Shown here: positions 10,191 to 20,084 of the stretch, piece after piece | How the letters are laid out: each line of letters starts with the position of its first letter | Numbering within the stretch: position 1 is the stretch's first letter | DNA from: a virus | DNA length: 23,339 bases | IMG/VR virus record: IMGVR_UViG_3300031851_000198 | Coordinates: 1-23,339 of that record | Strand: one strand, 5' to 3' | The notes under the pieces: generated by a model | Database searches by the model: none | The model's input: the letters and a program-made list of their open reading frames with translations, nothing else | What the model was told of the DNA's origin: nothing | Position numbers and translations under genes: made by a program

Positions 10191-10721
10191 TTGGAAATTT
10201 CTATTTTTTTAGGTTTTTTTGCAGGATATGTGGTTGGCAACGTGTTCTCTAGACTAATTAAGTTTAGGGAGCAGAAGCAAGCAATCACTATGGCACAAAT
10301 ACAATCACTAAGACTAATGTCCAACAGTGTTGTTCACTATGGAACACTACGCCAGTGGCACAACAACGTTGCTATCGGCATGGACGATATTAAGAAAAAA
10401 GCTATTGAAAGAATGACCGCTGGAATCAAGACTGATTCGGGGGTTATTTCTTTTTCAGATGCCGAAGTACGAGAACTGGAAGAGTTCTGGAAGAGCGACT
10501 GCGAGCAAGAGCTAAAAGGTGTTTGGAACACTTTTGAGTGGGATTTTAATAAATTTAAAGACGCATCAGTTGCGTTGATCGCAGAGGGTTCGTCTGAATA
10601 TGGTAAGCCACCTTATGGCAACTGGAGAGAGGCTATGCAGTGGTTGGGTATGTTTGAACTTGCGCTGATGCAGAAAGAGAAAGAGCGACAAAAATCGGAG
10701 GAAGAGAAAAATGAAGCTTGA
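10191..10721 (+). CDS. N-terminally membrane-anchored unknown protein
   Basis: TTG 10191 is chosen because AAAGGAG (10177-10183) sits 7 nt upstream; an upstream GTG at 10155 would begin inside a hairpin loop. The 176-residue product begins with a single membrane span (EISIFLGFFAGYVVGNVFSRLI, residues 2-23) followed by a basic stretch, so the body probably faces the cytoplasm. The soluble part is mostly helical, with tryptophans at conserved-looking sites (LRQWHNN, EEFWKSD, VWNTFEWDF, NWREAMQWLG) and a charged C-terminal tail rich in Lys and Glu. No family is recognised. It overlaps the kinase gene by 11 nt, suggesting coupled translation. Confidence 0.75.
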   Translation: MEISIFLGFFAGYVVGNVFSRLIKFREQKQAITMAQIQSLRLMSNSVVHYGTLRQWHNNVAIGMDDIKKKAIERMTAGIKTDSGVISFSDAEVRELEEFWKSDCEQELKGVWNTFEWDFNKFKDASVALIAEGSSEYGKPPYGNWREAMQWLGMFELALMQKEKERQKSEEEKNEA

Positions 10722-11985
10722 GGATGAAAATATTTTAAATGTCGGAGAACTAAAAGAATTGATTTCCGAAGAGAGAAAAAAGCAGAGACTTGTCAAGAAA
10801 GGGTTTCTGTTAGAGACACCAGAGGATCTTGAAGAAGCATCTTCTTTACGTAAAGAGCGACACGCTTTCAAAGCCGTGTTTTTGTTCGGTCCTGCCGGTT
10901 CTGGCAAGACGTTTATCTCAAACCAAGTGGGTCTTCCAAAGGTTGAGGATGGAAACAAGGGGTTCTCAACGGTAAACCCCGATCAGAGAATTGAAGATGT
11001 TTTCCCTTCTTTCGGTGTCACTATGAAGTTCGCATCTGGTGAGGGCAACGAAGAGTTGGAGAAACTACAGCAGGGTATGCGTGGGATTCTACAAAACGCC
11101 TCACAGCAACATACCCATAACTTGATTACAAAGGCGAAGCCATTGATCTTTGACACTACTGGCGAAGACGTTAAGAAGATGATGAAGAGGGTCAAGTCTC
11201 TACAAAGTATTGGGTACAAGGTCGGCGTTCTCATGGTCAATGTCCCACCTGACGTGTCGGTAGAAAGGGACAACAATAGGGCTAGGACTGTTGGTGCTGA
11301 TCGTACGAAAGACATTAGTAATACCTATCAACAAGCCGTTGTACAAGAGCGAGGCTACTTCAAAGCATTGCGGGGAACTGGTGCTACAGTGTTTGGTGGT
11401 GATATTTATCCAAACTTGTTTAACTTGAGCACAAATACTCTACTTAAGGGTATATCTCCAGAACACGTCAAGGCGATGGGTAACCCAACACCAGAGGCTG
11501 CAAAGGCTCTGTTGGACAATATTAAAAAAGATGTGCAAATGTTTTTGAGCCCAGATTCACCATTGACAGCCCACGGTGAAGCTATTAAGGCTGCGATGTT
11601 GAAGATGATTCAGATTACTGGGGGTAGAAACGGTCAGAACATGCTTGATATTGAAATGTACTGGTCCGATGCTTTCCGTGAAGAATATCCTGAAGTTGTT
11701 GGCGACAAACACATTGAGCAGGCAGCGAAATATCTTTCGTGGCTCGGTGGAGCAGAACCATCGGCTAAAAAGGCAAATCGTTCAAGGAAGGACATTGGTG
11801 ATGACACTGTACGGGATATGACGGGAAACAGGAACCCAACAAAAATGGGTCAAATGGTTCCGGGAACTGACACCGAAGAAAACCCACAGGGTCGCAACCG
11901 AAGGTGGCAAGAGAGTGAACAGAAATTGGTCTCCGATGTAATTCGTGAGGCTGTTTTACAGATCAAGAAAGATCTTGGTAAATGA
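10711..11985 (+). CDS. Zeta-toxin-like P-loop kinase
   Basis: This 424-residue protein contains a P-loop kinase domain. The Walker A motif is GPAGSGKT (60-67, with K66), followed by STVNPDQRIED (86-96), which resembles the zeta-toxin substrate-aspartate motif, and LIFDTTGEDV (145-154), the Walker B-like strand. A lid with several arginines follows (R186, R190, R192 in VERDNNRART). Zeta toxins phosphorylate UDP-GlcNAc; relatives phosphorylate nucleotides or polynucleotides, so the substrate here is open. Residues 250-424 form a separate region without recognised motifs, ending in a helical tail (SEQKLVSDVIREAVLQIKKD). There is no adjacent antitoxin-like gene. It sits between a membrane protein and a ClpP-like protease. 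Confidence 0.72.
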   Translation: MKLEDENILNVGELKELISEERKKQRLVKKGFLLETPEDLEEASSLRKERHAFKAVFLFGPAGSGKTFISNQVGLPKVEDGNKGFSTVNPDQRIEDVFPSFGVTMKFASGEGNEELEKLQQGMRGILQNASQQHTHNLITKAKPLIFDTTGEDVKKMMKRVKSLQSIGYKVGVLMVNVPPDVSVERDNNRARTVGADRTKDISNTYQQAVVQERGYFKALRGTGATVFGGDIYPNLFNLSTNTLLKGISPEHVKAMGNPTPEAAKALLDNIKKDVQMFLSPDSPLTAHGEAIKAAMLKMIQITGGRNGQNMLDIEMYWSDAFREEYPEVVGDKHIEQAAKYLSWLGGAEPSAKKANRSRKDIGDDTVRDMTGNRNPTKMGQMVPGTDTEENPQGRNRRWQESEQKLVSDVIREAVLQIKKDLGK

Positions 11986-18753: not shown

Positions 18754-18794
18754 AATCACTAATCTTTAAAAAATAAAAAACATTGATAAAATAC

Positions 18795-18823
18795 TTGACA
18801 AACAGGTGATTGTTTGGTATAGT
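18795..18823 (+). promoter_or_regulatory. Strong sigma-70 promoter of the structured RNA
   Basis: A perfect TTGACA (18795-18800), a 17-bp spacer and TATAGT (18818-18823) with the extended -10 TGG. The predicted start is at about 18830, which is exactly where the first hairpin (GTAAGG) begins. The next start codon is nearly 200 nt away at 19025. Confidence 0.78.
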
Positions 18824-18829
18824 ATGTAT

Positions 18830-18994
18830 GTAAGGTGGTAGAGAGGACTGATCATCTTCTCGGATCCTTACCACTGGCTAATCACCGGTGAAAGAAAAGA
18901 CATAAGATGATGGGTTGATTCCCCGGATTCGGTTCATCACCCGAGCCTAGCTGGTAGGTTGAGATTGGCGGTTCAATTCCGTCCTCGGGTTCCT
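18830..18994 (+). ncRNA. Candidate structured RNA with tRNA-like 3' domain
   Basis: Between the gene ending at 18753 and the one starting at 19025 no coding region is supported, but the sequence folds well on paper. Hairpin 1 spans 18830-18871: GTAAGG/CCTTAC, an internal loop, then GAGAGGA/TCTTCTC closing the 7-nt loop CTGATCA. Hairpin 2 spans 18872-18890: CACTGG/CCGGTG around the 7-nt loop CTAATCA. An A-rich linker (18891-18905) follows, then hairpin 3 (18909-18938): GATG/CATC with an inner CCG-GATT-CGG. The 3' end is the tRNA-like domain at 18939-18994. The promoter places the 5' end at hairpin 1. It is not a canonical tRNA or a recognised tmRNA. Folding was done by eye. Confidence 0.55.
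18939..18994 (+). other. tRNA-like domain lacking an anticodon arm
   Basis: ACCCGAG (18939-18945) and CTCGGGT (18984-18990) form a perfect 7-bp acceptor-type stem. Inside are a D-arm-like hairpin, CCTA-GCTGG-TAGG (18946-18958), and a clear T arm, GGCGG-TTCAATT-CCGTC (18967-18983), with a 5-bp stem including one G-U pair and a T-loop-type heptamer. Only 8 nt (TTGAGATT) replace the anticodon arm and variable loop. The tail TCCT lacks an encoded CCA. It could be a degenerate tRNA or a processing or tRNA-mimic element. Confidence 0.6.
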
Positions 18995-19024
18995 AACGAT
19001 CATAAACTAGAAAGGTGTCTTGAA

Positions 19025-19234
19025 ATGGAATTAGAAGATGTTGAGAGAAGAAAGTCGGCTTTGGTTACGATCTTGAATCAGATGGAGGTACCCGAAGACA
19101 ATAAGGATTTTCACCCTTCCCGAGCTTCAAGAAACCTACGCTGGCTCCAGCGAAACCTTGCGGTGCAAAACGGAGAACACCCTATGTTTGGGACAGCAAT
19201 GGTGCTGGTTAGGGATATTTTAAAAAATATTTAA
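19025..19234 (+). CDS. Small unknown protein, 69 aa
   Basis: ATG 19025 is preferred; earlier in-frame starts would run through the tRNA-like domain. GAAAGGTG lies about 9 nt upstream. The product starts with an acidic helix (ELEDVERRKSALVTILNQME), followed by a basic segment (SRASRNLRWLQRNLAVQN) and a C-terminal helix (MVLVRDILKN). No family is recognised. It would be transcribed from the promoter at 18795, behind the structured RNA, and ends just before the promoter at 19243. Confidence 0.6.
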   Translation: MELEDVERRKSALVTILNQMEVPEDNKDFHPSRASRNLRWLQRNLAVQNGEHPMFGTAMVLVRDILKNI

Positions 19235-19242
19235 AATAATGC

Positions 19243-19271
19243 TTGACAATCTGTGTTCTAGATGCTATATT
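19243..19271 (+). promoter_or_regulatory. Sigma-70 promoter for the 19302 gene
   Basis: A perfect TTGACA (19243-19248), a 17-bp spacer and TATATT (19266-19271) with the extended -10 TGC. The -35 region TTGACAATCTGT is identical to that of the promoter at 2936. It lies in the 67-bp gap before the next gene. Confidence 0.78.
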
Positions 19272-19301
19272 ATATATGTACTGATGATGAGGAGAGCTTA
19301 A

Positions 19302-20084
19302 ATGGGACTTCGTGAGCGATTGGAAAACTTGGTGACTAACCCCTTGGTTGTGGATTCCACAGACTATGACTTTGCAAAAGGTCTCTTGGAATATTACGAC
19401 AGGAAGGGTTGCCTTACGTCCGGTCGCCGACCGTGGCTTGATAAGCTTGAGCACAAGTATGATGCTGCTAACTACGTTGATCCTCTTGCGGGTAATCCGC
19501 AGGCAAAGGTTATCGTAGATCTTCTCGCAAAAGAGAACGTCGCCGAAGGCGACAAGCGGTTTCTCACCTCTCTTAAGGGTGCCGTCGCCCGCTGGGGTAA
19601 ACTGACAGAGCGACAATCAGCCGCTCTTGAGCGTATTATGGAGCGTTACTCTGAAGCAGGTCAACAGCGTCGTGCGGTTTGGTCTGAAGTTTACGCAGAC
19701 CGTCGCCATGAGGCAGTCGCTGCGGCGAACTACTATGCAGCGAACCCACCTTACTATGGTGACTTGGCGGAGCGCATTCTGACAGAGGTTGATTTCGTCC
19801 CCACTGAAAAGCAATTCAATGCTATTACTCAAAACAAGTATGCACAAAAAGTAATCAAAGCGACTCTCTCGGAGCCTTTGTTCCCTGCGGGTGCTATGGT
19901 AGAGGGTCGTGCATCTGCGAACTATAAGCTGCGAGGCAAAAAAGCATTCGTTCTTAAGGTTAACTACGGTCACGTAACTAATGCGGCAAAAGGGACTAAA
20001 AAGTATTTAGTTCTACCAGTTGGTGCTCCCACCCCTCTGGTTGTTGAGGAGCGTGAAATTAAAAAGGTTAAGAAACTAAAGTAA
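19302..20084 (+). CDS. Unknown protein with internal helical repeats
   Basis: This 260-residue protein starts at ATG 19302 after GAGGAGAG, and its promoter and ribosome site suggest strong expression. Residues 1-200 show about three loosely repeated units of 60-70 residues: LLEYYDRKGCLTSGRRPWLD, LKGAVARWGKLTERQSAALE and ILTEVDFVPTEKQFNAIT, each followed by a short helix. The unit (helix, G-x-LT or P-T turn, helix, Lys/Arg-Tyr) resembles a small helical binding module. Residues 205-260 look beta-rich and basic (YKLRGKKAFVLKVNYGHV) with a lysine-rich end. I do not recognise the family; nucleic-acid binding is a guess from charge. A strong hairpin follows at 20092. Confidence 0.78.
   Translation: MGLRERLENLVTNPLVVDSTDYDFAKGLLEYYDRKGCLTSGRRPWLDKLEHKYDAANYVDPLAGNPQAKVIVDLLAKENVAEGDKRFLTSLKGAVARWGKLTERQSAALERIMERYSEAGQQRRAVWSEVYADRRHEAVAAANYYAANPPYYGDLAERILTEVDFVPTEKQFNAITQNKYAQKVIKATLSEPLFPAGAMVEGRASANYKLRGKKAFVLKVNYGHVTNAAKGTKKYLVLPVGAPTPLVVEEREIKKVKKLK

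Follow-up and report, generated by a model that had tools for sequence, protein, structure and literature searches.

A predicted phage RNA ending in a tRNA-like domain without an anticodon arm, and the viral class to which the domain belongs

The window, a stretch of 23,339 nucleotides from the viral record IMGVR_UViG_3300031851_000198, carries a structured element that ends in a tRNA-like domain lacking an anticodon arm. The structure is conserved in a second genome, and the domain belongs to a class that is widespread among viruses and occurs beside known phage RNAs. An independent homologue with a compensatory change, a strong covariance-model score and many relatives give good support for a structured RNA with such an anticodon-less 3' domain, most likely a new small non-coding RNA to which the armless domain is attached. 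We think it somewhat better than an even bet that the window holds a promoter-driven phage non-coding RNA whose armless domain acts as a processing signal, cut by RNase P at its 5' edge.

The features are as follows.

18795..18823, plus strand: promoter TTGACA-17-TATAGT with extended -10 (consensus scan, 11/12 matches)
18830..18871, plus strand: hairpin 1, the 5' part of the predicted RNA (RNAfold)
18872..18890, plus strand: hairpin 2 (RNAfold; two-sequence consensus)
18896..18913, plus strand: conserved block AAAGACATAAGATGATGG, identical in homologue L396
18909..18938, plus strand: hairpin 3, abutting the tRNA-like domain (RNAfold and consensus fold)
18938..18939, plus strand: predicted RNase P cleavage position (deduced from where the acceptor stem lies)
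18939..18991, plus strand: anticodon-armless tRNA-like domain (descriptor, covariance model, homologue with a compensatory acceptor pair)
18939-18945/18984-18990, plus strand: acceptor stem ACCCGAG/CTCGGGT, perfect 7 bp
18946-18958, plus strand: D-like arm CCTAGCTGGTAGG, carrying the D-loop GG
18959-18966, plus strand: linker TTGAGATT, 8 nt in place of the anticodon arm
18967-18983, plus strand: T arm GGCGG-TTCAATT-CCGTC with canonical T-loop
18991, plus strand: position-73 base, U
19025..19234, plus strand: downstream 69-aa ORF (ORF list)

The predicted RNA gene in the window and its homologue

The initial annotation had placed a promoter-driven structured RNA in a 271-bp gap without a supported gene, and this layout was borne out. 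The ORF list leaves 18754-19024 (271 nt) without a supported ORF. The near-consensus promoter has its -35 TTGACA at 18795-18800, a 17-nt spacer, the -10 TATAGT at 18818-18823 and the TG of the extended -10 at 18815-18816, so that transcription is predicted to start at about 18829-18831, at hairpin 1, as had been proposed. RNAfold, which had been suggested as a check, returned the same three hairpins and, after them, the tRNA-like fold; acceptor stem, D-like arm, 8-nt linker and T arm all lie where they had been described. The domain shares with tRNAs the 7-bp acceptor stem and the T arm with its canonical T-loop, and has only 8 nt between the D-like arm and the T arm where the anticodon arm would stand. 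Its D-like arm forms 3-4 bp, CCT(A)/(T)AGG, with no 8-9 linker, and departs from the canonical 4-bp D stem TAGCTC..GAGC. The domain ends in U73 and has no RCCA 3' end.

Neither a tRNA nor a tmRNA had been recognized in this element, and the programs agree: ARAGORN called neither in the window, and Rfam gave no match at gathering, where a known element would have spoken against the annotation, and no tRNA or tmRNA match even at E<=10. We therefore set aside a canonical tRNA, a tmRNA or any known Rfam family as its identity. Covariance model R1, trained without the window, scored it at 30.5 bits (E=3.5e-8 in 287 kb), and a strict armless-tRNA descriptor (7 acceptor pairs, 5 T-stem pairs, T-loop, short spacing) found matches in 5/2000 Markov-shuffled windows. 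A permuted tRNA in which hairpin 1 would serve as the anticodon arm was discarded since the acceptor strands are unseparated and hairpin 1 is unconserved, and a prophage att site in a tRNA is unlikely, given that conservation extends to the 5' acceptor strand and the D arm.

Related phages had been named as the place to look for covarying stems, and one independent homologue supplies such a case. Contig records L016, L017 and L018 (G014-G016), linked to the window phage via a 260-aa protein, contain a 53-nt match identical in length to the window domain; the three contigs are near-identical and count once, so that the RNA body is compared between two sequences. The homologue aligns with window 18874-18991 over 118 nt at 84% identity, and pair 4 of the acceptor stem, C-G in the window, is G-C in the homologue, a compensatory change. 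In the consensus fold of the two sequences, three pairs of hairpin 2 have changed on both sides and are still paired. Both sequences share hairpins 2 and 3 as well as the tRNA-like domain; of the three annotated hairpins it is hairpin 1 that is not kept in L396, block CTGATCAT excepted. Block AAAGACATAAGATGATGG was found in no viral contig besides the window and the homologue. Within the window, AAGATGAT (18904-18911) is complementary to ATCATCTT (18851-18858), and this candidate long-range helix could form in L396 too, with one G-U there, although two sequences are no proof. The homologous RNA has its own promoter, a length of ~313 nt and a fold z=-3.6; its gene neighbours differ from those of the window, and it precedes another gene, which has its own promoter. 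Directly after its domain stands TTTCATTTTTTT, a U-run, and then the next promoter; no U-run follows the domain in the window copy.

The promoter is present at the syntenic place in L002, L003 and L218-L222. L002 and L003, the closest syntenic relatives, keep it and have no domain, and the slot holds a small ORF in L218-L220 and almost nothing in L221-L222; because the slot is so variable, we take the RNA gene as accessory. Downstream, the 69-aa ORF has relatives in other viral contigs (37-51% identity) and no match in Pfam or PHROG. We saw no promoter of its own before it, so it is probably on the same transcript as the RNA.

Several further observations concern the window and its relatives. 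L002 carries a different ~150-nt insert at the slot of the window RNA (L002:3760-3915), with ends GGCTGTAG/CTACAGCC. Most promoters of this phage group are followed by a GAGAG or GGAGAG-like leader motif (window 18818-18845 and 19266-19302; L003, L218-L222, L396). GGGTTGATTCCCCGGATTCGG, just upstream, bears no more than a resemblance to tmRNA, and a tmRNA-like reading of it was set aside. At window 10711-11985 a 424-aa protein with an AAA_33/Zeta-toxin-like kinase domain (Pfam) is encoded, in the same region as ClpP, GroEL and an amidase.

A class of armless units in viral genomes

Is the domain one of a kind? The initial annotation treated it so, and this did not survive a class scan of 2.9 million viral contigs. 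The scan sought D-loop and T-loop motifs so closely spaced that an anticodon arm would not fit between them, selecting on these loop sequences only and making no use of acceptor pairing, and it found at least 107 unique viral loci in which such an arm would have almost no space. Perfect 7/7 acceptor pairs in the expected register occur in 45/107 among the matches listed, versus 0.26% expected when acceptor partners are exchanged between matches. Among 50 listed matches with six or seven pairs there are 47 distinct acceptor sequences; with the acceptor sequence so free, a specific synthetase is unlikely. In alignment A3 (49 sequences) the Levitt pair 15-48 covaries, with GC in 34, AU in 11, GU in 1 and 3 unpaired; the acceptor and T-stem pair counts of A3 are biased because its members were picked for pairing, and 15-48 was not selected. 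The window domain is a short variant of this class, with a paired acceptor, D/T-loop motifs, a T arm and <35 nt from acceptor to T stem.

ARAGORN called 0/55 class members, and CCA is encoded in 6/55. About two thirds (35/55) have no tRNA at the same locus, standalone copies far from tRNAs among them, and about a third lie in tRNA clusters; the class is perhaps mixed, and some of the cluster members may be decaying tRNAs. Most canonical armless relatives exceed the Rfam tRNA cut-off; the window copy has no Rfam tRNA match. Hairpins are enriched upstream of the units (mean z -1.45 vs -0.23 further upstream), which is suggestive only, because intergenic DNA is hairpin-rich, and the window itself (z 0.8) lacks the enrichment. 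A pattern for the window's own subclass, TGGTAGGTTN{6,14}GGTTCRANTCC, gave 7 matches, of which several are intact tRNAs and only L197 is similar.

We found no description of anticodon-armless phage tRNAs in the open-access literature. Nor did that literature yield an account of the armless fold as a class that recurs and covaries, or of its placement at RNA ends.

Related forms also turned up. A second recurrent minimal form, centred on GGTAGAGCTGGTGC and including a T arm and CTACC, appears at L288, L235, L248, L290, L303, L305, L317, L319 and L322; it is apparently an even shorter tRNA-like unit, present in many contigs. In a Lacticaseibacillus genome, three consecutive tRNA-like units, the first armless, adjoin a phage late activator gene (L344:3768-4126, minus strand), and neither L344 nor L347 showed GOLLD even at a loose threshold. 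Around the capsid gene of Rhodococcus phage REQ3 and Streptomyces phage SV1 there was no armless unit. Many matches in bacterial genomes (e.g. L342, L343, L346) were ordinary tRNAs with NN assembly gaps in the anticodon arm and were discarded; such NN runs in metagenome-assembled genomes mimic armless tRNAs, and filtering is needed.

Armless units beside GOLLD, ROOL and other phage RNAs

Pseudo-tRNA inside GOLLD has been described (PMC6582537), and GOLLD and ROOL are reported near tRNA islands, with functions unknown (PMC12286853); the association of these RNAs with tRNAs is therefore already known. The placement of the units adds to it. In an S. porci prophage, an armless unit begins 4 nt past the GOLLD end. 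Across 19 GOLLD loci, which represent three bacterial families, 7/19 carry a strict tRNA or tRNA-like unit whose start is no more than 15 nt from the 3' end, vs ~1% at random positions. Among these loci, L418, L424, L426 and L433 have intact tRNAs, which cover Trp, Arg, Phe and Asn, and L417, L425 and L440 an armless or degenerate unit; the strict unit is absent in the other 12/19. In five further loci, all from the first family, a T arm is present and its partner is degenerate. Since intact and armless units interchange behind GOLLD, selection would seem to act on the acceptor-elbow half and not on decoding.

ROOL at L432 lies between an armless unit, which ends 10 nt upstream, and a tRNA-Lys, which starts 5 nt downstream; the ROOL loci L427-L429 have no armless or tRNA unit. 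One phage record, G023, combines ROOL and HEARO with ~20 armless units, each 40-62 nt long and mostly 47-185 nt apart, which form two arrays poor in ORFs. In this record (L398, G023:59500-76000), many mini tRNA-like units are followed by a small hairpin or a repeated GGAGGACGCTTGTTCTCGACAGC. At L321:1866-1965, between head-scaffold and major capsid genes, an abiF RNA (RF03085, 39.9 bits, cut-off 37) is followed after 4 nt by an armless unit. The window RNA and L396 gave no match to the Rfam GOLLD and ROOL models.

A proposed processing mark and its rivals

Why keep half a tRNA? The acceptor-elbow half is what RNase P, tRNA 3' nucleases, the CCA enzyme and T-arm modification enzymes read, and the only parts that the armless units keep, acceptor pairing, T arm and D/T elbow, are those read by enzymes of tRNA ends. 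On the processing reading, which is the simplest one, an RNA body of ~110 nt (18830-18938) would be transcribed from the window promoter together with the tRNA-like domain after it, in which acceptor stem, T arm and D/T elbow are retained and the anticodon arm is lost. RNase P would cut at 18938/18939; this would leave the RNA body with a defined 3' end beside hairpin 3 and detach it from the 69-aa ORF, and on its far side the domain may be trimmed by a tRNA 3'-end nuclease. The transcription, the cleavage and the enzymes are what we infer for the window RNA. RNase P measures the elbow-acceptor edge (PMC4919913), and it matures the 5' end of tmRNA, whose tRNA-like half has no anticodon arm (PMC3985003). 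Some bacterial RNase P reactions depend on an RCCA 3' end (PMC12710915), and U73 and the missing RCCA of the window domain count against its being read by RNase P. The absence of the domain in L002 and L003, of the strict unit in 12/19 GOLLD loci and of any unit at L427-L429 likewise counts against processing. Processing by tRNA enzymes as at MALAT1, the role that the initial annotation gave the domain, has indirect support from the interchange of units behind GOLLD, from armless units that flank or punctuate other phage RNAs and from the parts of the tRNA that are kept.

The domain could instead stay uncut and shield the RNA as a stable 3' cap or terminator hairpin, which we regard as fairly unlikely. 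The succession of domain, TTTCATTTTTTT and next promoter in L396 favours this, and given its U-run the homologue's domain may double as a terminator; but the window copy has no such run, and D-loop GG, T-loop and 15-48 covariation would be needless in a plain hairpin. Unlikely, too, is a decoy, in line with the host-factor mimicry that the initial annotation gave as its alternative, in which an elbow-acceptor mimic would bind or tie up host tRNA enzymes or a defence aimed at tRNAs. Retention of generic elbow features, standalone copies far from tRNAs and many copies in one phage all fit a decoy, but the position at the ends of other RNAs and the replacement of intact tRNAs behind GOLLD fit processing better, and anticodon nucleases would be unable to read an armless domain.

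We hold it quite improbable that the domain is a decaying tRNA gene that has lost its anticodon arm: although its D-arm and T-arm sequences plainly derive from a tRNA and about a third of the class sits in tRNA clusters, acceptor changes are compensatory both between window and homologue and class-wide, and a 118-nt context is conserved at a different genomic place. A cis-acting leader controlling the 69-aa ORF is very improbable; the RNA does lie between the promoter and that ORF, but the homologue stands ahead of a different gene with its own promoter, and the fetched relatives of the ORF (L113-L124) have no tRNA-like unit adjoining the gene. Chance resemblance, for which the ordinary fold energy of the window (z=-0.28, RNAfold) might speak, has a negligible probability and is for practical purposes refuted by the shuffle rate (5/2000) and, more strongly, by the model (E=3.5e-8) and the conserved homologue.

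For the processing reading, MALAT1/mascRNA is the best-fitting analogy, if an unproven one. In MALAT1/mascRNA and NEAT1/menRNA, two lncRNAs of mammals whose maturation depends on tRNA enzymes, the non-coding RNA runs into a tRNA-like domain and the cut site has a stable element just ahead of it; in the window, too, a tRNA-like domain lies directly 3' of a structured, putatively non-coding RNA, with hairpin 3 ahead of the predicted cut. The mammalian RNAs have a triple helix, whereas the phage RNA has a hairpin, no anticodon arm at all and a predicted processing step. A 2025 paper gives MALAT1 and NEAT1 as the only lncRNAs known to mature via the tRNA-processing machinery (PMC12941219). Among phage RNAs, GOLLD (RF02032) shares with the window RNA a tRNA or tRNA-like unit at its 3' end (7/19 loci) but has another body, the window RNA being far shorter and without an Rfam match; ROOL (RF03087) has the armless unit and tRNA flank of L432 and occurs in a phage with armless arrays, but its body is unrelated and several of its loci have no tRNA neighbour. 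The tRNA-like domain of tmRNA resembles the window domain in its acceptor and T arm, the missing anticodon arm and its cleavage by RNase P (predicted in the window), but its acceptor strands lie hundreds of nt apart around a tag ORF, whereas those of the window lie within 52 nt. Canonical tRNA (RF00005) shares acceptor stem, T arm and D-loop GG; the window domain has no anticodon.

More broadly, phages of many hosts may use a dedicated anticodon-less fold, not itself a tRNA, as punctuation that defines where non-coding RNAs end, GOLLD, ROOL and the new window RNA among them, with arrays of ~20 in one genome, a proposal to which we give slightly less than even weight. If true, GOLLD and ROOL would gain a testable maturation route, their siting near tRNAs would be explained, and the known tRNA-derived elements would be joined by one that escapes ARAGORN and is labelled a plain tRNA where Rfam does pick it up.
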